NCBI RefSeq assembly: GCF_019693215.1
Contig: NZ_CP081183.1
Coordinates: 499,226 to 563,225, forward strand
Direction of reading: 5' to 3'
Source of the DNA: Salinarchaeum sp. IM2453
GTDB lineage: Archaea; Halobacteriota; Halobacteria; Halobacteriales; Salinarchaeaceae
Length of the DNA stretch: 64,000 nucleotides
Numbering within the stretch: position 1 is the stretch's first letter; each line of letters begins with the position of its first letter. Below, in pieces: positions 3,179 to 58,367 of this stretch. The notes beneath the pieces are model-generated. The model was not told the DNA's origin. It did no database searches and saw nothing but the letters and a program-made list of their open reading frames with translations. The translations under genes and the position numbers were made by a program.

Positions 3179-3628
3179 CTAATCACGAAGAACGAACTGC
3201 AAAAGCGGTGACAAAAACGCTGAGACTGGTCGCAGGGAGAGATAGGGACGAGCAAGGTACCAAAGCATGACACCGCTGGCACCAATGGTATTGACAACAA
3301 CATCACTAACGAGGAACGAACTGCGATGAGGAACAAAGGCCTGCCCGGCCTCGATTAAGGCTCCATAGCCAGCAGCAAGCCCAATCACAATCAGTGCATG
3401 GCGCCAACGAGGAAGCTGCCAGTGATCAGTTGCATATGCCAGCGAACAGGCAAGCACACAGTATGCAACAAGATGTCGCCAGTAGTTGATCGGAATTGAA
3501 TCCGGCTGTGTGTCATCCACAACGGTCTCTGGAACCGTCAGCAAGGACGAATACAAAATAAAGCCAGCGATAACAAGGACCCCAGCCCATCGGAGCCGAC
3601 GAGAGAACAATGGCAGCGGAACCTGCAT
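3179..3628 (-). CDS. VanZ-like membrane protein (copy 2)
   Basis: Paralogue of the protein at 1541-2035, nearly identical over the membrane helices (for example LPRWRHALIVIGLAAGYGAL). It has 149 residues from the ATG at 3628, which matches the start of the paralogue (MQVPLPLFSRR); an upstream in-frame start at 3697 would only add residues read from transposon sequence. It lacks the Ser/Gly-rich insertion of copy 1 and has a different C-terminal tail, LLQFVLRD. The two copies bracket transposon debris, so the duplication may be tied to element activity. Confidence 0.75.
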   Translation of the reverse strand: MQVPLPLFSRRLRWAGVLVIAGFILYSSLLTVPETVVDDTQPDSIPINYWRHLVAYCVLACSLAYATDHWQLPRWRHALIVIGLAAGYGALIEAGQAFVPHRSSFLVSDVVVNTIGASGVMLWYLARPYLSLRPVSAFLSPLLQFVLRD

Positions 3629-3696
3629 ACGGGTAGGCTGATGGGCGCAAATTATATAATCGTGCTGAACACAAGCAAGTGAAGTACTTGGGGGCA

Positions 3697-3755
3697 AGTC
3701 GTTCGAGAATCTCCAACCTCGTGATCACAAAAATCGAAGGAGTTCGGTCGATCAG
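3697..3755. repeat. Solo copy of the structured left-end motif
   Basis: Degenerate copy of the motif seen at 2217, 16860 and 25757: gtcgttcgagaatc, then cgtgatcac, then a weaker hairpin. No matching right end or tnpB was seen nearby. It sits just upstream of the VanZ copy 2 start. Confidence 0.5.
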
Positions 3756-3954: not shown

Positions 3955-6930
3955 TTGAAAGCCAATTCTATGATGAAGACACAGATACAATATTCTCGAC
4001 CGGTGCGGATAGGTATCGTATTGATAATTATACTGTTAGCTGGTATCGCAATGGGCACCCTGTCGGTAGCTGCCCAAGAAGACGACCTGTCGTTTGATAA
4101 TCAGGCGACAGGATCAACATTTTCAGATGGAGGAACAACCAATCCGGGCGTAGTTGTTGAAAATGTCACAGCAACGCAGGACAGCGCTGTCGTTGTGACG
4201 TATGAGGACGCTGAGGGTAATACCATTATTGCTGGTGGAGAGTTCTTTGATGAAGAAGAGCTTGCTGGAGATGATGTTACACTCATAGTTGATAATATTG
4301 GGGGGTTCCCAGGTGAGCACACGGCCCATGTGATTCCAGAAGATGAACTCAGTGATGAAGAGTATGACGTTGGGGACACGGTGTCTGATGAGACTGCTGG
4401 TGCCGTGACAGCAGCTGAGACTGCAACAGTTTTCCAAGGGACACTAGAGTTTGCAGATCAAGGATTTGACGAAGAACTTGACACAGACGATACAATCACA
4501 CTTGATACGGCCATACTGGACGATGGCGAAGGAGAGGCTAGTGATACGCTCTTTACTGTTGATATTCACCCAACAGATGATGACGGCAATCTCGTCGGTG
4601 ATGAGTTTATTGGTAGTTCCGATGTACTTGTTGGCGAAAACGATGATGTGACAGTTAATCTTGATCAGGTACCTGAGGACGGCGAGTTCAACGAGTTTCC
4701 GATTGATGAAACAGATGAGTATATTGCAATGATTCATGTTGTTGATGATGATGATGCTGAGGAAGGCGATGCGGCAGCCCCCGGCGAGTACCCGGTCTTG
4801 CCAAATGTTGATGGAATAGAAGGGCCAGTACCAGGTGGGATAACTGATACGGGAACGGTATTCTTTGAGGATGCAGTGTCATTCAATGACCAAGCGACAG
4901 CCTCACCAAGTGCTACACTTGATCGTGATACTGACCCTGGAGTGATTGTTGAAGATGTACAGGCCCTGCAGGACAGTGCTGTTGTTGTGACCTACGAAGG
5001 ATCAACGGCAGTACAAAGCGGTGACGAGGTAACAATCGATCTTGATAATGTTGGTTCGGATGCATGGGAAGTAAACGGCGTCTCCGGAGCAACCGATAAT
5101 ATTGAAGATGTCGTCCGAGAGGATGAAGCCAATCCAACACTGCTGCTCGTTGAAGGGGTAGAGTATACCTTTGAGGACTTACCCGGAGAGGCCCATCCAC
5201 TTGAATTCCAAGATGACGAAGGCAACGCATTGCTTAGTCAAGATGGTGATGGAGCCTTTGAAGATGATGGAGAGGTTGGCTGGAATGATGAAGGAGATGA
5301 AGTGAGCTTTACGCTAACTGCTGATCTCAACGCAGAACTCACAACGTATGTCTGTACCATCCACGGAGCAATGGAAGGACAAATTCAAACACCGCTGACC
5401 ATTGCTGGGCTTGCAGAAATTGATGGCCAGACTGGTGGCGATGTTGCTGTTGAAATCGAAGATGATGGTGGCTTCCCGGGTGAGCATACAGCACATCTAA
5501 TCCCAACTGCAGAGCTGAGCGAAGACTATGCATCCGGTGATGTTGTCTCTGAAGAAACGGCTGGCGAAGTCAGTGTGGCTGAACAGGCAACAGTCTTCCA
5601 AGGGGACCTAGAGTTTGCAGATCAGTCATTTGAGGGCGCACTTGCAGAAGGTGATGATAGCATCGTTGTTGAGACAGCAACGCTGAATGGCGATGAAGAT
5701 ACGTTATTCCAGATTGATGTCCATCCGGTGGACGAAGAGGGAACACTTGTTGGCGATGAGTTTGTTGGTAGTTCAGCAGTGCTCAGCGGCGACAATGAAG
5801 ACGTTGAGATTACCCTAGATGCAGTTCCAGAGGATGGCACATTCAACGAACTGCCACTTGCTGAAACAGATGACTTTATTGCAATGGTGCATGTCGTCGA
5901 TGATGAAACGGTCGATGAAGGAGATCAGGTCGAGCCGGGGACGTTCCCAGTATTACAGAATGCTGACGATCAGCTGGCATTTGTTCCGGGTGGCATTACA
6001 GACCAAGCAACAGTAACCATTAACCCAGGATTGAGCTTTGTTGATCAGGCCACTGAATCAAGTACCATTACAAGCGAGACACCAACAAATGCCAGTGTCG
6101 TCGTTGAGGATGTTGTTGCAGCTGAAGACAGTGCTGTTGTCATAACCTACGAGGAAGGGGATGAGTCAATCATCGCTGGGGTAGAGACCGTTAGTCCAGA
6201 CATTGGTGGCGATGCAGTGACCGTTGAACTAGATGACACAGACGGATTCCCGGGCGAACACACAGCACACCTGATTCCAACGGATGGGTTAAGTAATCCA
6301 GAGTATGAAGCAGGCAATCAGGTGTCCAGTGCCACTGCTGATGCCGTAGAAGCAGCAGAGACTGCAACAGTCCTCCAAGGCGAACTTGCATTTGCAGATC
6401 AAGAATTTGACGAGCCAGTTGAAGCAGGCGATGAAATCATCGTTGAAACAGCAAACCTCTCGGCTGGAGTCGATGATGATACAGCATTTACGGTTGATGT
6501 CCATCCAACAAATGACGAGGGAGAACTGGTCGGCACTGAATTCGTTGGTAGTTCCAATGTGCTAGAAGGCGATAACAGCGATGTTGGGATCGAACTTGAG
6601 CAGGTCCCTGAAGATGGTGCGTTCAACCAGCTACCGCTTAATGAGACAGATGACTTTGTAGCAATGATCCATCTTGTTGGTGATGATGATGCAGCAGCTG
6701 GAGATGATGCATCACCCGGAGCGTTTCCAGCATTACAAAACGCCGATGCTGAAGACGGCTTTGTGCCGGGTGGAGTTACAGATGATGCAACACTCACCAT
6801 TGTGGAACCAGATCCAGCAGATCCTGGTACAAATGGAGAAGACGATGACTTCGGATTTATCTTTATACTGATTGGAATTGTTGCTCTTGCAGCCGCAGCA
6901 ATTGCGTTGGTCCTGTCAGGATCTGATTGA
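3955..6930 (+). CDS. Large acidic surface protein with repeated domains and an embedded cupredoxin
   Basis: A 991-residue exported protein. The N-terminus has a signal peptide (basic region, then IGIVLIIILLAGIAMG, likely cut near SVAAQ) and the C-terminus a membrane anchor (FGFIFILIGIVALAAAAIALV) followed by GSD. Between them are three long repeats. Each contains a DUF7282-like unit (VVVEDV..DSAVVVTYE, then GGFPGEHTAHLIP, ATVFQG) and a second unit (FTVDVHP, FVGSS, FIAMVHVVDD, VPGG). In the second repeat, residues about 370-480 are replaced by a plastocyanin-like domain with type 1 copper ligands His414, Cys467, His470 and Met473. The TTG at 3955 has GAAGGA six bases before it; ATG at 3970 is an alternative. 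It probably stands on the outer face of the membrane and may be redox-active; the substrate is unknown. Confidence 0.75.
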   Translation: MKANSMMKTQIQYSRPVRIGIVLIIILLAGIAMGTLSVAAQEDDLSFDNQATGSTFSDGGTTNPGVVVENVTATQDSAVVVTYEDAEGNTIIAGGEFFDEEELAGDDVTLIVDNIGGFPGEHTAHVIPEDELSDEEYDVGDTVSDETAGAVTAAETATVFQGTLEFADQGFDEELDTDDTITLDTAILDDGEGEASDTLFTVDIHPTDDDGNLVGDEFIGSSDVLVGENDDVTVNLDQVPEDGEFNEFPIDETDEYIAMIHVVDDDDAEEGDAAAPGEYPVLPNVDGIEGPVPGGITDTGTVFFEDAVSFNDQATASPSATLDRDTDPGVIVEDVQALQDSAVVVTYEGSTAVQSGDEVTIDLDNVGSDAWEVNGVSGATDNIEDVVREDEANPTLLLVEGVEYTFEDLPGEAHPLEFQDDEGNALLSQDGDGAFEDDGEVGWNDEGDEVSFTLTADLNAELTTYVCTIHGAMEGQIQTPLTIAGLAEIDGQTGGDVAVEIEDDGGFPGEHTAHLIPTAELSEDYASGDVVSEETAGEVSVAEQATVFQGDLEFADQSFEGALAEGDDSIVVETATLNGDEDTLFQIDVHPVDEEGTLVGDEFVGSSAVLSGDNEDVEITLDAVPEDGTFNELPLAETDDFIAMVHVVDDETVDEGDQVEPGTFPVLQNADDQLAFVPGGITDQATVTINPGLSFVDQATESSTITSETPTNASVVVEDVVAAEDSAVVITYEEGDESIIAGVETVSPDIGGDAVTVELDDTDGFPGEHTAHLIPTDGLSNPEYEAGNQVSSATADAVEAAETATVLQGELAFADQEFDEPVEAGDEIIVETANLSAGVDDDTAFTVDVHPTNDEGELVGTEFVGSSNVLEGDNSDVGIELEQVPEDGAFNQLPLNETDDFVAMIHLVGDDDAAAGDDASPGAFPALQNADAEDGFVPGGVTDDATLTIVEPDPADPGTNGEDDDFGFIFILIGIVALAAAAIALVLSGSD

Positions 6931-17555: not shown

Positions 17556-17700
17556 ATTCGAGAAGTGAACTACCCCACCCTACTCGCTCACCGCTATCGC
17601 GGTTCGCTCCTTGAGGGTGGGGCTTCCTGTGTCAACGACGGCACTTGCAGGAATCACGTCTCTAGACGAGCTAGAGCGTGACCCCGCAGCGGTGCCAGTC
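17556..17700 (-). ncRNA. Predicted reRNA scaffold of TnpB copy 1
   Basis: The 3' end of tnpB holds a strong stem (ggaagccccaccctcaagg against gtagggtgggg on the minus strand) at the element's right end. In IS1341-type elements of haloarchaea this region makes a sense-overlapping RNA, now known as the TnpB guide RNA. The guide would be the bases just outside the end, below about 17556. The exact ends are inferred. Confidence 0.45.
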
Positions 17701-18893
17701 TCAGCAGGCGTTGATTCGGCCAGTTCCTGACCTAATCCCGATTCATTTTCAACCACCCCCAGCTCAAGCAATCCAAGACGCTGCACTTCAAGAGCCGCAT
17801 TCTGGTCACGGTCAGTCTTGAATCCACATGACGGACACGAATGGTCGCGCACCCACAACGGCTTCTCCGACTCCACACCACACTGCACACACCGCTTCGT
17901 CGTCCCCTCTGGTGGAACGAGAACCACGTGACAACCGTTCTTCTCGCCAAAGCGTTGGAATGTTTGCAATGTCTCATACCACGACATCGACGCAATATTC
18001 CGATGATTACCGTTCTGCTGCATCATACGACCGACGTTCAGGTCTTCAAGGAACACGGCATCGTAGCGTTGCGTATACGCGTTGGTGAGTGCCTCGCGGT
18101 ACGCTTTACGCTTGTTCGATAATCGCTCGTACGCTCGCGCTAAGCGTTGGCGTGCCTTGTTCCAGTTGTTCGACTCGTGTTCTTTACGAGACACGACTTG
18201 ATGACATTTGTTGATTCGTTCGCGGTCTTCCTTTTCGTCCAACGGTTTGAACGCTCGCCCGTCCGAGTCGTGGATGAACGTCGTGATACCGAGGTCGATG
18301 CCAACCGTGTCTTCAACGTCGATGTCTTCGACGGCGGGCTTCTCTGGAGAGTCAGCGTTGTGTTCGACGATGATGCTGATCGTCCAGTCACCTGTTTTCT
18401 GCTTTTTCAGGATGACTTGCTTGATGTCACCGTTGTTTGGGAGTGGTCGGTGAAAGTTCAAGTGGAACGTGCCGATTTTTGAGAGTTCGACCGTCGCGTG
18501 GTCAGTCCGGCCCGTGTTACTATCCACGTCAAAGCCAGACTGGTTATAGCAGATGCTGCGGAACTCTCGCGGGGCTTTCCACTTGAGTTCACCAACATCA
18601 AATCCACGCTCTTTCAGCTTGTCGAGTATAGTTTCCGAGTGCTTGATGCGCCGTACTGCCATTTGCAGGCACTTCGAATAGACGGTGCTCCACTCAGGCC
18701 ACTCGTGCTTCCACTCGGGAAGTTTGTTCTGCATCGTGGTGTACGATGGCTTGTCGTAGTCAGGAGCGGGTTTGTACTCTTGTGTGAGTGCGTGGTTGTA
18801 CACTTCTCGACAGGTTTGAATCGCTTGCCACGCACTCTCGGCAGTAGTGGTGTCCTCGGGCTCAGCAGCGTATTTGAACGCTTTCTCAACCAC
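17580..18893 (-). CDS. tnpB: TnpB (IS1341-type RNA-guided nuclease), copy 1
   Basis: 437-residue TnpB. It has the N-terminal helical/WED region, then the RuvC triad: Asp in VGIDLGITT, Glu in AVFLEDLNV and Asp in KTDRDQNAALEV. Between the last two is a zinc finger (CVQC and CPSC). All catalytic residues are present, so it may be active. TnpB uses an RNA (reRNA or omega-RNA) from the 3' end of its own gene to cut DNA next to a short motif, which helps retain the element. There is no tnpA, as in other IS1341-type elements. The start is GTG at 18893. The extra C-terminal tail of about 60 residues overlaps the terminal hairpin that forms the guide-RNA scaffold. Confidence 0.9.
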   Translation of the reverse strand: MVEKAFKYAAEPEDTTTAESAWQAIQTCREVYNHALTQEYKPAPDYDKPSYTTMQNKLPEWKHEWPEWSTVYSKCLQMAVRRIKHSETILDKLKERGFDVGELKWKAPREFRSICYNQSGFDVDSNTGRTDHATVELSKIGTFHLNFHRPLPNNGDIKQVILKKQKTGDWTISIIVEHNADSPEKPAVEDIDVEDTVGIDLGITTFIHDSDGRAFKPLDEKEDRERINKCHQVVSRKEHESNNWNKARQRLARAYERLSNKRKAYREALTNAYTQRYDAVFLEDLNVGRMMQQNGNHRNIASMSWYETLQTFQRFGEKNGCHVVLVPPEGTTKRCVQCGVESEKPLWVRDHSCPSCGFKTDRDQNAALEVQRLGLLELGVVENESGLGQELAESTPAETGTAAGSRSSSSRDVIPASAVVDTGSPTLKERTAIAVSE

Positions 18894-24310: not shown

Positions 24311-24450
24311 GCGTGAACTCACCCCGGGGTCAAGCCCCGGGGCTTCCTGCTTCAACGACGCGCTTTGCACTCACAGCCTCCCGGTGAGGCGTGAGCGTAG
24401 GGAGCGCAGTCTCCACAGGCGTGGATTCGGACTGTCCCAGCCCTAACTGC
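24300..24450 (-). ncRNA. Predicted reRNA scaffold of TnpB copy 2
   Basis: The stem-loop at the right end (ccccgggg on both sides of a tcaag loop) overlaps the last tnpB codons. By analogy with known IS1341-type sense-overlapping RNAs this should be the guide-RNA scaffold. Ends are inferred, not seen. Confidence 0.4.
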
Positions 24451-25568
24451 TTGAGTCCTCTGTAGAGAATATTCTTCGCCGCGTTGAGGTCGCGGTCTTC
24501 CGTATGGCCGCACGCTGGACACGAATGCTCGCGTACCCAGATTGGCTTGGCTGTTTCGACACCACACACAGCGCATTCTTTGGTTGTTCCTCCCGGCTTC
24601 ACCTTTTCGACGTGTGTGCCGTGTAGGTCAGCCTTGTACTCCAGCAGTTCGATAAACTGCGACCACGCGGCATCCTGCTTGTTCTTGGCGTTCTGGCTGG
24701 TTTCCAGCATCGGTTTCACATCCAAGTCTTCGACGGCCACGAAATCGTACTCTGTGACAAGCCACGTAGTGAGCTTATGCTGGTAGTCTCGCACCTTCCG
24801 CTTGATTGTTCGTTTCGCTTGGGCGACTTTCCGGCGTTGGTTCTCCCAATTGTTGGACCCGTGTTCTTTCCGGTTGAGTTTCCGCTGTTCGCGCGCGTAG
24901 CGGTCGTACTCATCGGACAGGTCGAGTGTATCAACGGACAGGTTCTCCGAAGTGTGGATGTAGCTGGTGATACCAAGGTCAACGCCCACGCAGTCCTCGG
25001 CTTCAATCTCACTGAGTGGCAGTTTCTCGGGTGTGTCTTCGACAGTGGTGACGAGTGAGACGTACCATTCGCCAGTCGTCTCTTGTTTTAGGATTACCTC
25101 GTCAATGTCCTCTGCTGGTGGTACGTCGCGGTCTGCTCGGATTTTGAACCAGCCAATCTTTTCGAGTCGGAGTCGCACGAATCGGTCGTCGCCCGTGTTG
25201 TAATCCACGTTGAAGCGACTTGACTGATTGTACGACACTGACCGAAATTCGCCTGCCCCTTGCCACTGCAACCGCCCAACATCGTAGCCTTCGTTTCGGC
25301 GTTCTTGCAGCGTCTCTAGGTCGCTGTGAATTTGGCTGATAGCCTGTTGTGCGGCGTGTTGTGACGGGTCGGCAAAGGTGGGCCACTGGTCTGTCCAGTC
25401 TTTGAGTTTGCTGTGTTGGTCGTAGTCAGATGGCCTGTCGTTGTAGTCTGAGTTATAGTAGTCTCGGACAGCGTGATTACGAATCTGCCGGAGAATGTCG
25501 ATGTGCCGCCACGCTTCGCTTGCCACGTCGTCGGGCAGGTACGCGCGGAAGCGAAGCGTATGTTTCAT
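24330..25568 (-). CDS. tnpB: TnpB (IS1341-type RNA-guided nuclease), copy 2
   Basis: 412-residue TnpB with all RuvC residues: Asp in VGVDLGITS, Glu in VAVEDLDVKP and Asp in EDRDLNAAKNI, plus the zinc finger CAVC/CPAC. It follows a small AbrB-like gene with a five-base gap, an arrangement often seen in haloarchaeal tnpB elements. The whole element runs from the structured left-end motif at 25757-25812 to a right-end hairpin (ccccggggtcaagccccgggg) at about 24322-24345. Short derivatives with the same ends lie at 2217-2636 and 16632-16925, suggesting this element mobilised or spawned them. Confidence 0.9.
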   Translation of the reverse strand: MKHTLRFRAYLPDDVASEAWRHIDILRQIRNHAVRDYYNSDYNDRPSDYDQHSKLKDWTDQWPTFADPSQHAAQQAISQIHSDLETLQERRNEGYDVGRLQWQGAGEFRSVSYNQSSRFNVDYNTGDDRFVRLRLEKIGWFKIRADRDVPPAEDIDEVILKQETTGEWYVSLVTTVEDTPEKLPLSEIEAEDCVGVDLGITSYIHTSENLSVDTLDLSDEYDRYAREQRKLNRKEHGSNNWENQRRKVAQAKRTIKRKVRDYQHKLTTWLVTEYDFVAVEDLDVKPMLETSQNAKNKQDAAWSQFIELLEYKADLHGTHVEKVKPGGTTKECAVCGVETAKPIWVREHSCPACGHTEDRDLNAAKNILYRGLKQLGLGQSESTPVETALPTLTPHREAVSAKRVVEAGSPGA

Positions 25569-29576: not shown

Positions 29577-29700
29577 TGACATCCTCCTCGCCGTAAACGG
29601 CGAGGCTTCCCGTACCGCAGGTGGGATATTTGCCGGTCTACGATACGACCTGTTCTCTCGTGGTGAACGTCCCGCTTTCGCGGTCGAACAGGTGTACCGA
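29577..29700 (-). ncRNA. Predicted reRNA scaffold of TnpB copy 3
   Basis: The right-end hairpin cctcgccgtaaacggcgagg plus the last part of tnpB. The bases just outside it (cacgtacagcgatcacgaac on the minus strand) belong to the interrupted nuclease-helicase gene and would act as the guide. Scaffold ends are inferred. Confidence 0.4.
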
Positions 29701-30888
29701 GGGCTGTGCCACACAGCCGTTACTCCTATCCTCTCCATGAGGACTCGGAGTTATCTTCTGACGCATATTCTCCGCCCCATTACAATCTGCGTTCCCGACC
29801 AGCTCACACGATGAGCAGACGTACAACCCACGTTTGACACGGTTCGACTTCGTGTCGTCACCACACGAGGAACACGTTTTCGAGGTGTTCCACTCGTTCT
29901 CTTTCAGCACCTCGACACCACGTATCTCGCCTTTGTATTTGAGGTACTGGTAGATGCGGTCGAACGCCCACGTGTGCAGTTTCTTGTTGCCGGTTTTGCC
30001 CCAGTCGGACTGGCGCACGTCTTCGGGCCAACTCACTGCAAGCGTACCAACACCGCGCTCAACACATTCAGTGATAATCGTGTCCGTGAGGACGTGGTAG
30101 AAGTGAGTTTCACGCTCTGCAAGTTTCCTTCGCGCCCACATCGACTTTTCTGACGGGCCGTTCTCACCCTCAGTGTCGTACTCTGATCGCGTAAAGTAGT
30201 GCTTGTCTTCTTTAAGTGAATTGCCGGGGTAAAGAACGTACTCGTCGGGGAAAGCGACCGTGGCGATGTTCTTGATGCCAAGGTCGATCCCTGCCACTCC
30301 GTCGTCTGTCGAGTCGGTGGTTTCGAGGCTGACTTTGCAGACGAAGTGCAGTTCCCACTCGTCACCCGTCCAAACGGCACGAACGTTCTGCACCTTGTTG
30401 ACTTCCGCGAGGTCAACGTCTGGACAGGTCTGGTACTCGCAGAGCAGGAAATCGGAACGGTGTTCCTTCAGGTTCTTCCCCTTTGAGAGTCGGACGCGGT
30501 TGTTTTCGGGGTCGTGTTTGAACCCGTCTGCTTTGAACGTGACCGTACTGCGTAGTCGGTCATCACCGTGTTTGCGGTAGCCGGGCGGATTCGCCTCTGG
30601 GTCTTTCTGCCGCAGGTCGAACCACGACTGGAAAGCATCAGAAAGTTCTTCGATGACTTTCTGACTGGATTGTGCGTTCAAGTCTTTCCAGCACGGTTGG
30701 TTCTTCATATACGCTTTGAGCGTCCCTTCATCTGGGATTTCGCCTGTTGCGTTCCAGATGCGGTCGGCTGTCCAGCGTGCGACGTTCCAGATTTTCGAGG
30801 CAGAGTCTCCGAGCGAATCGAGGCCATCGCAGACCTGTCGCTGGTTCTGGATCGAACCAACGTAGGTGCGAGTGACCTCAATCGCCAT
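29638..30888 (-). CDS. tnpB: TnpB-like protein (IS1341-type), copy 3
   Basis: 416 residues of a different TnpB branch. GIDLGIKNIAT supplies the first Asp, the zinc finger is CSSC/CSSC, and NADCNGAENMRQ holds the last Asp. The middle motif reads GTLAVSWPEDVRQS: Ser stands where most TnpB proteins have the catalytic Glu, with a Glu three residues later in WPED. It may be an altered active site or a shifted motif, as some haloarchaeal branches have. The element's right end lies inside the nuclease-helicase gene. Confidence 0.8.
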   Translation of the reverse strand: MAIEVTRTYVGSIQNQRQVCDGLDSLGDSASKIWNVARWTADRIWNATGEIPDEGTLKAYMKNQPCWKDLNAQSSQKVIEELSDAFQSWFDLRQKDPEANPPGYRKHGDDRLRSTVTFKADGFKHDPENNRVRLSKGKNLKEHRSDFLLCEYQTCPDVDLAEVNKVQNVRAVWTGDEWELHFVCKVSLETTDSTDDGVAGIDLGIKNIATVAFPDEYVLYPGNSLKEDKHYFTRSEYDTEGENGPSEKSMWARRKLAERETHFYHVLTDTIITECVERGVGTLAVSWPEDVRQSDWGKTGNKKLHTWAFDRIYQYLKYKGEIRGVEVLKENEWNTSKTCSSCGDDTKSNRVKRGLYVCSSCELVGNADCNGAENMRQKITPSPHGEDRSNGCVAQPSVHLFDRESGTFTTREQVVS

Positions 30889-31187: not shown

Positions 31188-32186
31188 CTACGCGCTTACA
31201 CCAGGTGGGTCGTACACTTCGCCTCGGTCAAGCATGTGGTACATCGACACCAGCATCTTTCGAGCTGTTGCCACGATTGCTTTCTGTGAGTTCTTCCGAC
31301 TAGCTAACCGCTCGTAGAACCGACTCAGATACTCGTCGTTACAGGTGTGGACAGCAGTATGAGCGGCCTGAACGAGCAGCCACCGGACTCTCCCTGAACC
31401 ACGTTTCGAGAGTTCACCTTCGATCCGCGAGTCGCCGGACTCGCGGATCACCGGGTTCAACCCGACGTAGCTGATGACTTCTTTGTCACCGTCAAACCGA
31501 TCAATCTCGCCTAATTCAGCGTAGATCGTCAACGCCGTATAGTAACTCACACCAGGAATCGTCATCAGCAGCTGGGTCTCCTCCAGAGACCCAGCGCGTT
31601 CTTCGATTGTCTCTTCGAGATTCTGTATCTCATCAGTGAGCGTCTCAATCACTTCGAGGTATGACTCCAACACCGATTTCCATGGCGTCGGGAGCGAGAG
31701 TTCCCGCAGGAACTCTCGTCCCTCTTGGGTCAACGGCTTCACATCTTCGCTGATGCCGTGATCAGAGAGGAGGCCGTGAACCTTGTTGGCATACTCTGTC
31801 CTGTGTTCGACTAACGACTGTCGCCCGCGCACGAGTGCGCGGGCTTCCCTGATTTCGTCGGTCGGAACATAACTCTCAGGCACGGAGTTCAACCGAACCA
31901 TCCGCGCGAGTTCTTTGGCGTCAACACGATCAGTTTTCTTATCAGTATCAGCGATCTGGTTCAGTTCCTTCGGGTGAGCAACAGTCACATCCAAATGCTC
32001 CGACAGCGTATCGTGGATGTGGTAGTAATTGCTGGTCGCCTCTATCGCGGCTTGTGCGCCAGCGTACCGCTGTGCAAGGTCATCGAGGTTCGCGTTCTCG
32101 ACGCGAACCTCTTCGACGATTTCTCCAGACTCATCCATTACTGCCACCTGTGCGTACCGTTTGTGGACGTCGATTCCGAGGTACAT
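31188..32186 (-). CDS. IS110-family DEDD transposase
   Basis: 332 residues. MYLGIDVHKRYAQVAVMDES opens the RuvC-like DEDD domain; AAIEATSNYYHI and KTDRVDAKELARM give further acidic residues. The C-terminal transposase_20 domain shows LLMTIPGVSYYTALTIYAEL, ISYVGLNP and LSKRGSGRVRWLL with the serine region. The gene is complete. At least five perfect inverted repeats with arms of 10-12 bases lie inside it (31422, 31571, 31695, 31823, 32085), an unusual load. Confidence 0.9.
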   Translation of the reverse strand: MYLGIDVHKRYAQVAVMDESGEIVEEVRVENANLDDLAQRYAGAQAAIEATSNYYHIHDTLSEHLDVTVAHPKELNQIADTDKKTDRVDAKELARMVRLNSVPESYVPTDEIREARALVRGRQSLVEHRTEYANKVHGLLSDHGISEDVKPLTQEGREFLRELSLPTPWKSVLESYLEVIETLTDEIQNLEETIEERAGSLEETQLLMTIPGVSYYTALTIYAELGEIDRFDGDKEVISYVGLNPVIRESGDSRIEGELSKRGSGRVRWLLVQAAHTAVHTCNDEYLSRFYERLASRKNSQKAIVATARKMLVSMYHMLDRGEVYDPPGVSA

Positions 32187-57297: not shown

Positions 57298-58367
57298 GAG
57301 CATGTCATAGAAACGTTCTCAATGAAGGAAGCAGGGTGTTGGAACTGTGTCTACGAGCGCCAGCACCCTGCAGGACGTAGCTTCGGTCGACGACTTCTTG
57401 AATGTCGCGGCTACGGAGACAGCACCGCTGTTCGAGTATTTGGAGTTCGATTTTCTGCTTGAGTACGAAGTGTTCGCCCCCGCGAGCAGGGGGCGAACAC
57501 GAGTACACAAGCCACCAGAACTCTTCAAAGGTTTTCTCCACTGCTACTACAAAGGTATCTACGGCACACGCCCAGTTACACGAGAGCTCCGAAATACACT
57601 GACTTGGCTGTCCTGGGGTTTCGAGAAACCACCTTCACGAGACACTGTTGACCGGTTTCTCACTGATCTTGAATTGGTGGTGGATGATGTCTTTGACCGT
57701 CTCGTCGAGCAGGCCGCCTACCGGGGCCTGCTCGACCCCACATACCGCATCGATTCGACTCACATCACTGCAATCGAGTACAACGATGAGGCGACGTGGA
57801 ACTACGACTCAACTGCTGAAGAACACTACTACGGCTTCGGCTGTGTGATTGTTTCAGCCGGGCCAAAGATTCCGATTGCAGCGGAGTTCACACAACGAAA
57901 GCAAATTAATACTGAGACGGTGATGCGCGTCACGAAGGACGCGCTCGCCGTCGAAACACCGATCTGGATGCTCGGAGACAGTGCCTACGACATCCTGAAG
58001 TGGCACGACTTCCTGCTGACGCAGGGAATCGTGCCGATCGCACCGTACAATCCACGCAACACGGACGACCCGTTTGACATCGAATACAGGGTCGAAGACC
58101 GTATCGACGAACACGCTGAAGACATCAGTCTCAAGCAGTCAGTACTGGACAAGACGTACGATCACCGGACGCAAGTGGAACGAACAAACGAAGCCTGCAA
58201 GGACTGCGGCCTCGGGCACGTCCGCGCCCGAGGCCGAGTCCACGCACGAACACAGGTGTTCGTGGCGCTTTGTCTCCGTGTGATCGTCGCCATCACCAAT
58301 TACGAACAGGGAGACAATCCCGGACGGACAAAGCTCAAGACCCTGTGATTGATTCTATGACACGCTC
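57298..58367 (+). mobile_element. IS5-like insertion sequence, intact
   Basis: Inverted ends GAGCATGTCATAGAA (57298-57312) and TTCTATGACACGCTC (58353-58367) differ at one base and enclose a complete transposase. It truncated the membrane-protein gene that begins at 58944. Confidence 0.8.
57347..58348 (+). CDS. IS5-like DDE transposase
   Basis: 333 residues from a GTG start, intact. LLDPTYRIDSTHITAIEYND holds the first Asp, PIWMLGDSAYDILKWHDF the second, and HRTQVERTNEACKDCGLGHV the Glu. Three perfect inverted repeats with arms of 10-12 bases occur in the gene, at 57470-57500, 57704-57736 and 58208-58235. Confidence 0.85.
   Translation: MSTSASTLQDVASVDDFLNVAATETAPLFEYLEFDFLLEYEVFAPASRGRTRVHKPPELFKGFLHCYYKGIYGTRPVTRELRNTLTWLSWGFEKPPSRDTVDRFLTDLELVVDDVFDRLVEQAAYRGLLDPTYRIDSTHITAIEYNDEATWNYDSTAEEHYYGFGCVIVSAGPKIPIAAEFTQRKQINTETVMRVTKDALAVETPIWMLGDSAYDILKWHDFLLTQGIVPIAPYNPRNTDDPFDIEYRVEDRIDEHAEDISLKQSVLDKTYDHRTQVERTNEACKDCGLGHVRARGRVHARTQVFVALCLRVIVAITNYEQGDNPGRTKLKTL

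Follow-up and report, generated by a model that had tools for sequence, protein, structure and literature searches.

A predicted type 1 copper domain nested in a repeat module of an acidic surface protein from Salinarchaeum sp. IM2453

The 64 000-nucleotide stretch of contig NZ_CP081183.1 analysed here (the window) encodes an acidic protein of 991 amino acids in which a domain of approximately 130 residues interrupts the second of three repeats. Judged by its sequence and its predicted structure, the inserted domain is a type 1 copper (cupredoxin) domain. The protein would be exported, anchored in the membrane at its C-terminus and composed of Ig-like modules in three tandem A-B pairs, with a complete type 1 (blue) cupredoxin spliced into a β-hairpin turn of the repeat-2 A module. 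Copper binding by the predicted type 1 site is probable and well supported; we infer the loading of the domain with one copper ion, the anchoring and surface display of the protein, and electron transfer. The function that we favour, with moderate confidence, is that of a copper-loaded one-electron carrier, nested in repeat 2 of an anchored protein and tethered outside the cytoplasmic membrane; it would act in a halocyanin-like manner, with the repeats serving as a spacer. The features of the gene are listed in Table 1.

Table 1. Positions of the protein, its repeats and the predicted copper ligands in the window
Feature	Position	Strand	Basis or remark
Whole ORF, acidic surface protein, 991 aa	3955..6930	+	From TTG; alternative ATG start at 3970
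Putative hydrophobic N-terminal export signal, ~residues 6-40, no lipobox Cys	3970..4074	+	Sequence
Repeat 1, residues 45-307, uninterrupted A module and B module	4087..4875	+	Repeat alignment
Repeat 2, residues 308-692, A module interrupted by the insert and followed by the B module	4876..6030	+	Repeat alignment and model
Insert, ~residues 349-480, predicted cupredoxin core 356-479	4999..5394	+	Alignment with nine uninterrupted modules; AF2
Predicted copper ligand His414	5194..5196	+	H in 43/43 relatives
Predicted copper ligand Cys467, sole Cys of the protein	5353..5355	+	C in 42/43 relatives
Predicted copper ligand His470	5362..5364	+	H in 42/43 relatives
Predicted axial ligand Met473, loop C-x2-H-x2-M	5371..5373	+	M in 42/43 relatives; profile aligned to amicyanin
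Repeat 3, residues 693-952, uninterrupted A and B modules	6031..6810	+	Repeat alignment
C-terminal hydrophobic segment, ~residues 966-987, likely membrane anchor	6850..6915	+	Sequence; inference

The reading frame is uninterrupted throughout. It opens with a TTG codon, and the in-frame ATG codons at residues 6-7 would be a more usual start. The protein contains 13.5% Asp and 10.9% Glu (24% in total), and the hydrophobic stretches at its N-terminus and near its C-terminus suggest that it is exported and anchored in the membrane. This composition, the Ig-like modules and the predicted C-terminal anchor bear out the acidic surface protein of the original prediction; the comparison with a stalk is suggested by the Ig-like repeats. 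Pfam and NCBIfam searches with the full-length protein returned chance matches only, and the PGF-CTERM models TIGR04126 and PF18204 gave no match on it. The repeats (4087-6810) also carry 12 of the 14 His residues of the protein, at four homologous positions per repeat within the motifs HTAH, DVHP and AMIH (residues 122, 125, 205 and 261 and their equivalents), where a second metal-binding role or a structural role is possible.

The order of the predicted ligands is H-x52-C-x2-H-x2-M, and the four residues named in the original prediction lie exactly at the positions that it gave. The window domain is no more than about 54% identical to its relatives, yet the ligand columns are invariant in 42 of the 43 family members. 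The existence of a cupredoxin barrel was one of the points on which the prediction could have failed. A cupredoxin fold was predicted by AlphaFold2 for residues 355-482 (mean pLDDT 92.4, pTM 0.87), and a Foldseek comparison of the model with the PDB was led by rusticyanin, plastocyanin, amicyanin and the type 1 domains of nitrite reductases, the matches also including a few Ig or oxidase-subunit entries. The TM-scores by target reached 0.59 against plastocyanins.

A profile of the 43 family sequences was also compared with solved structures. Amicyanin (E = 1.5e-4) and plastocyanin (E = 1.7e-4) were the first matches, followed by Ig light chains with weaker scores, and in the profile alignment the HPL/HPF-motif His, like the C-x2-H-x2-M loop, falls on the copper-site residues of amicyanin and plastocyanin. 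The C-x2-H-x2-M spacing is the loop length of amicyanin, while in most of the more distant members from haloarchaea the loop reads C-x2-H-x3-M. Earlier described as plastocyanin-like, the domain is by profile and by loop type equally near to amicyanin. Only the 43-row profile reached these structures; phmmer searches of the PDB with the whole protein or the domain gave no match. The window domain alone scores 15.2 bits with PF00127 (Copper-bind), below the cut-off of 21.2 bits, which counts against the assignment and makes the domain harder to detect with that model; both the fold and the ligands expected of a cupredoxin are present in the predicted domain. Of the 43 members, 20 match PF00127 at E < 0.01, and one relative (L066), with 21.8 bits, exceeds the curated cut-off. 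A CuA site was considered and rejected because there is only one Cys.

When the three repeats are aligned, one large insert stands out in repeat 2, whereas repeats 1 and 3 lack any such insert, as had been proposed. The insert lies between ...DSAVVVTYE and ...LTIAG of the host. In the nine other A modules of alignment A5, which combines the repeats of the window protein with seven repeats from other genomes, the two flanking strands are linked by a turn only a few residues long; one of the foreign repeats has a second, unrelated small insertion. The insertion adds to repeat 2 with no loss of host residues. In a model of repeat 2 (385 residues, pLDDT 75.6) the A and B modules are predicted well and the insert falls between the consecutive strands 34-41 and 174-182, that is, in a hairpin turn. 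The cupredoxin part of this model is poor because few alignment rows cover it and the first strand of these is misplaced. The junction and the repeat-2 model are based on alignments A5 and A7; the mixed insert and repeat alignments A3, A6 and A8 were misaligned and were set aside.

This nested arrangement did not turn up in any of the other genomes searched, as might be expected if an assembly or annotation error had fused two genes. Such an artefact is nevertheless very improbable: the frame is single and stop-free in a one-contig genome, the host sequence resumes on both sides precisely at the join of the relatives, and the insert is as acidic as its host (34 Asp and Glu in 134 residues).

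The repeat-2 model matches strings of Ig-like domains, including the Haloferax S-layer protein, and all of these matches are weak and general. In a single profile-to-profile comparison the B module aligned with DUF7282 repeats (hhalign probability 89, E = 2.5e-7), which makes it a distant DUF7282 relative. The A module does not align in the profile comparison and was rejected as a DUF7282 copy, and DUF7282 (PF23951) gave no match above the curated cut-off in the window protein or its genome.

Relatives of the inserted domain are widespread in haloarchaeal exoproteins. Of the 293 genomes of the order that were searched with the domain, 90 had matches at E <= 0.001, the best at E = 1.5e-32; the closer subfamily of the window domain shares 41-54% identity. 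A contig scan identified 19 further contigs with the domain, using a 3-row alignment since an 8-row alignment was too diverse. These relatives and the conserved ligand columns show that the insert is no product of chance. Small lipobox-type proteins (L078-L082, L117-L123) contain the domain. In Halovenus surface proteins with a Tat leader it stands N-terminally of DUF7282 repeats, and in L109, L112, L114 and L116 it has the same position relative to an A + B repeat of the window type (across a frame break in L109). The pairing of cupredoxin and repeat is therefore recurrent, as the Halovenus and MAG proteins carry the domain beside an A + B repeat or DUF7282. On a Bacteroidota-binned contig the domain follows two fasciclin domains in a lipobox protein (L115, 5002-6369), a placement that may reflect transfer between halophiles or a binning error. 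Plasmid records gave two weak matches, one annotated as a copper-binding protein and the other as a sugar dehydrogenase, and the own-genome matches L003 and L004 were dismissed (E = 0.07-0.11).

Two further observations concern these relatives. In three Halovenus genomes an acidic lipobox-type protein of approximately 370-410 residues with no Pfam match is encoded directly upstream of the cupredoxin-DUF7282 gene (L105 4641-5759, L110 4624-5736 and L107 4507-5739). The large haloarchaeal exoproteins L085, L086, L088 and L101 have a cupredoxin near both ends; some are annotated or readable as sugar dehydrogenases, and their N-terminal cupredoxin often has no recognizable C-x2-H-x-M loop.

Nesting of the domain is not confined to the window protein. 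A subtilase of the same genome (L002, 286-2463, plus strand) has a nested cupredoxin-like domain at residues 405-523 (genome position C1:2441410-2441763) in which the Cys, the second His and the Met are replaced. A second subtilase, from a genome matching Halovenus aranensis (L160, 2702-5053, minus strand), has a nested copy at residues 455-586 at the same host site, and a CARDB-like repeat protein of 1883 residues (L159, 2-5650, plus strand) has one at residues 1350-1482. All of these copies lack the Cys and most lack further ligands, so that, among the nested copies seen in the genomes searched, only that of the window has kept its site intact. Subtilase relatives from two genomes cover ~237 query columns with 208-215 residues, leaving no room for an insert, which indicates that the nested copies arose by insertion. 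In the tree the window copy pairs with that of L002 (94/21), too weakly for a common origin to be claimed. The plastocyanin topology places both chain ends at the pole facing away from the copper. The domain behaves like a module suited to loops, as would be expected if its chain ends are adjacent, and insertion in a loop could leave the copper face pointing outward.

The copies without ligands indicate that the fold can persist without copper, and that copper is dispensable for the domain in some hosts. By extension, the window domain could be a mobile β-sandwich insert that acts as a structural spacer or a binding surface, its copper site being a remnant or incidental. We consider this unlikely, as the window copy has retained all four ligands and the surrounding motif despite deep divergence (branch length 0.79).

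The intact type 1 ligands would also be compatible with a surface role in which the domain captures, buffers or senses copper instead of transferring electrons, and the genomic context bears on this alternative. The window is rich in surface-polysaccharide and mobile-element genes: nucleotidyl transferases, sugar and glycosyl transferases, a UDP-sugar dehydrogenase, a Wzy-like ligase, a pilin and VanZ are encoded alongside TnpB/IS605, IS110 and DDE transposases. No redox partner gene was found among the scanned window genes, which fits capture or sensing, and methylamine dehydrogenase (mau) genes were absent from the scanned window ORFs. However, no kinase, regulator or copper transporter was found alongside the gene either, and a surface-anchored sensor with no cytoplasmic part cannot signal alone. 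Moreover, electron transfer is the task for which type 1 sites are tuned, and one copper per 991 residues would make a poor buffer. A capture, buffering or sensing role thus seems improbable, to about the same degree as a purely structural one, and a tethered electron carrier remains the reading that we prefer. Two other Copper-bind proteins are encoded in the genome, and the organism evidently makes blue copper proteins. Among the neighbouring genes, two closely similar VanZ-family genes upstream (1541-2035 and 3179-3697, both minus strand) are apparently a tandem duplication. The transposon genes comprise three of TnpB/OrfB type, one IS110 and one DDE (17580-18893, 24330-25568, 29638-30888, 31188-32186 and 57347-58348).

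These results document the cupredoxin as an insertable module in the β-sandwich repeats of a surface protein. Our literature search found no account of cupredoxins nested in surface proteins or of serial insertion into unrelated hosts, and no paper that mentions DUF7282; surface proteins of the DUF7282 type, of 'unknown function', now gain a recurrent copper-domain partner. The intact nested site of the window protein and the ligand-less nested copies of the subtilases and the giant CARDB-like protein provide natural controls, which allow a test of whether a type 1 site can work in a nested domain; whether haloarchaea hold blue copper away from the membrane is testable too. More speculatively, and with less confidence than we give even to the alternatives of surface copper handling and a structural insert, haloarchaea might reuse a plug-in cupredoxin in the loops of unrelated exoprotein domains, usually losing the copper, with the window copy keeping it on an Ig-like stalk from which electrons could be carried beyond the membrane. 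If true, an archaeon that lacks multiheme wires would have a surface conduit for electrons, leading to the S-layer and exopolysaccharide zone or through it.

The window domain shares the cupredoxin fold of amicyanin and plastocyanin (PF00127), according to its predicted structure, and the ligand pattern H...C-x2-H-x2-M of amicyanin. Those are small free proteins, whereas the window domain sits in a loop of its host domain, is strongly acidic and has a longer region between His414 and Cys467. It would also be an extracytoplasmic blue copper domain like the halocyanins of haloarchaea. HcpA, HcpG and HcpH of Haloferax are halocyanins, and HcpG, annotated as cupredoxin plus DUF5059, is thus multidomain (PMC9240420). 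Halocyanins are usually described as small and peripheral or lipid-anchored, whereas the window protein has 991 residues, holds the domain inside a repeat and, its sole Cys being a predicted copper ligand, has no lipidated Cys such as would mark a halocyanin. The setting of the gene resembles the cell-wall island of Haloquadratum walsbyi, in which cupredoxin genes lie among surface glycoprotein genes (PMC4535781). The cupredoxin-DUF7282 proteins of Halovenus and MAGs (L105, L107, L110, L112, L114 and L116) belong to the same subfamily (45-54% identity). In these the domain is N-terminal, after a Tat-type leader, and the C-terminus is PGF-CTERM-like with borderline scores; the window copy instead interrupts the second of three repeats, in a protein with no PGF-CTERM match. 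In the subtilases L002 and L160 the domain is likewise nested, but the host is a peptidase and the copper ligands have been lost. Extracytoplasmic blue copper domains are ordinary in haloarchaea; the nesting of a ligand-complete domain in a repeat is unusual.
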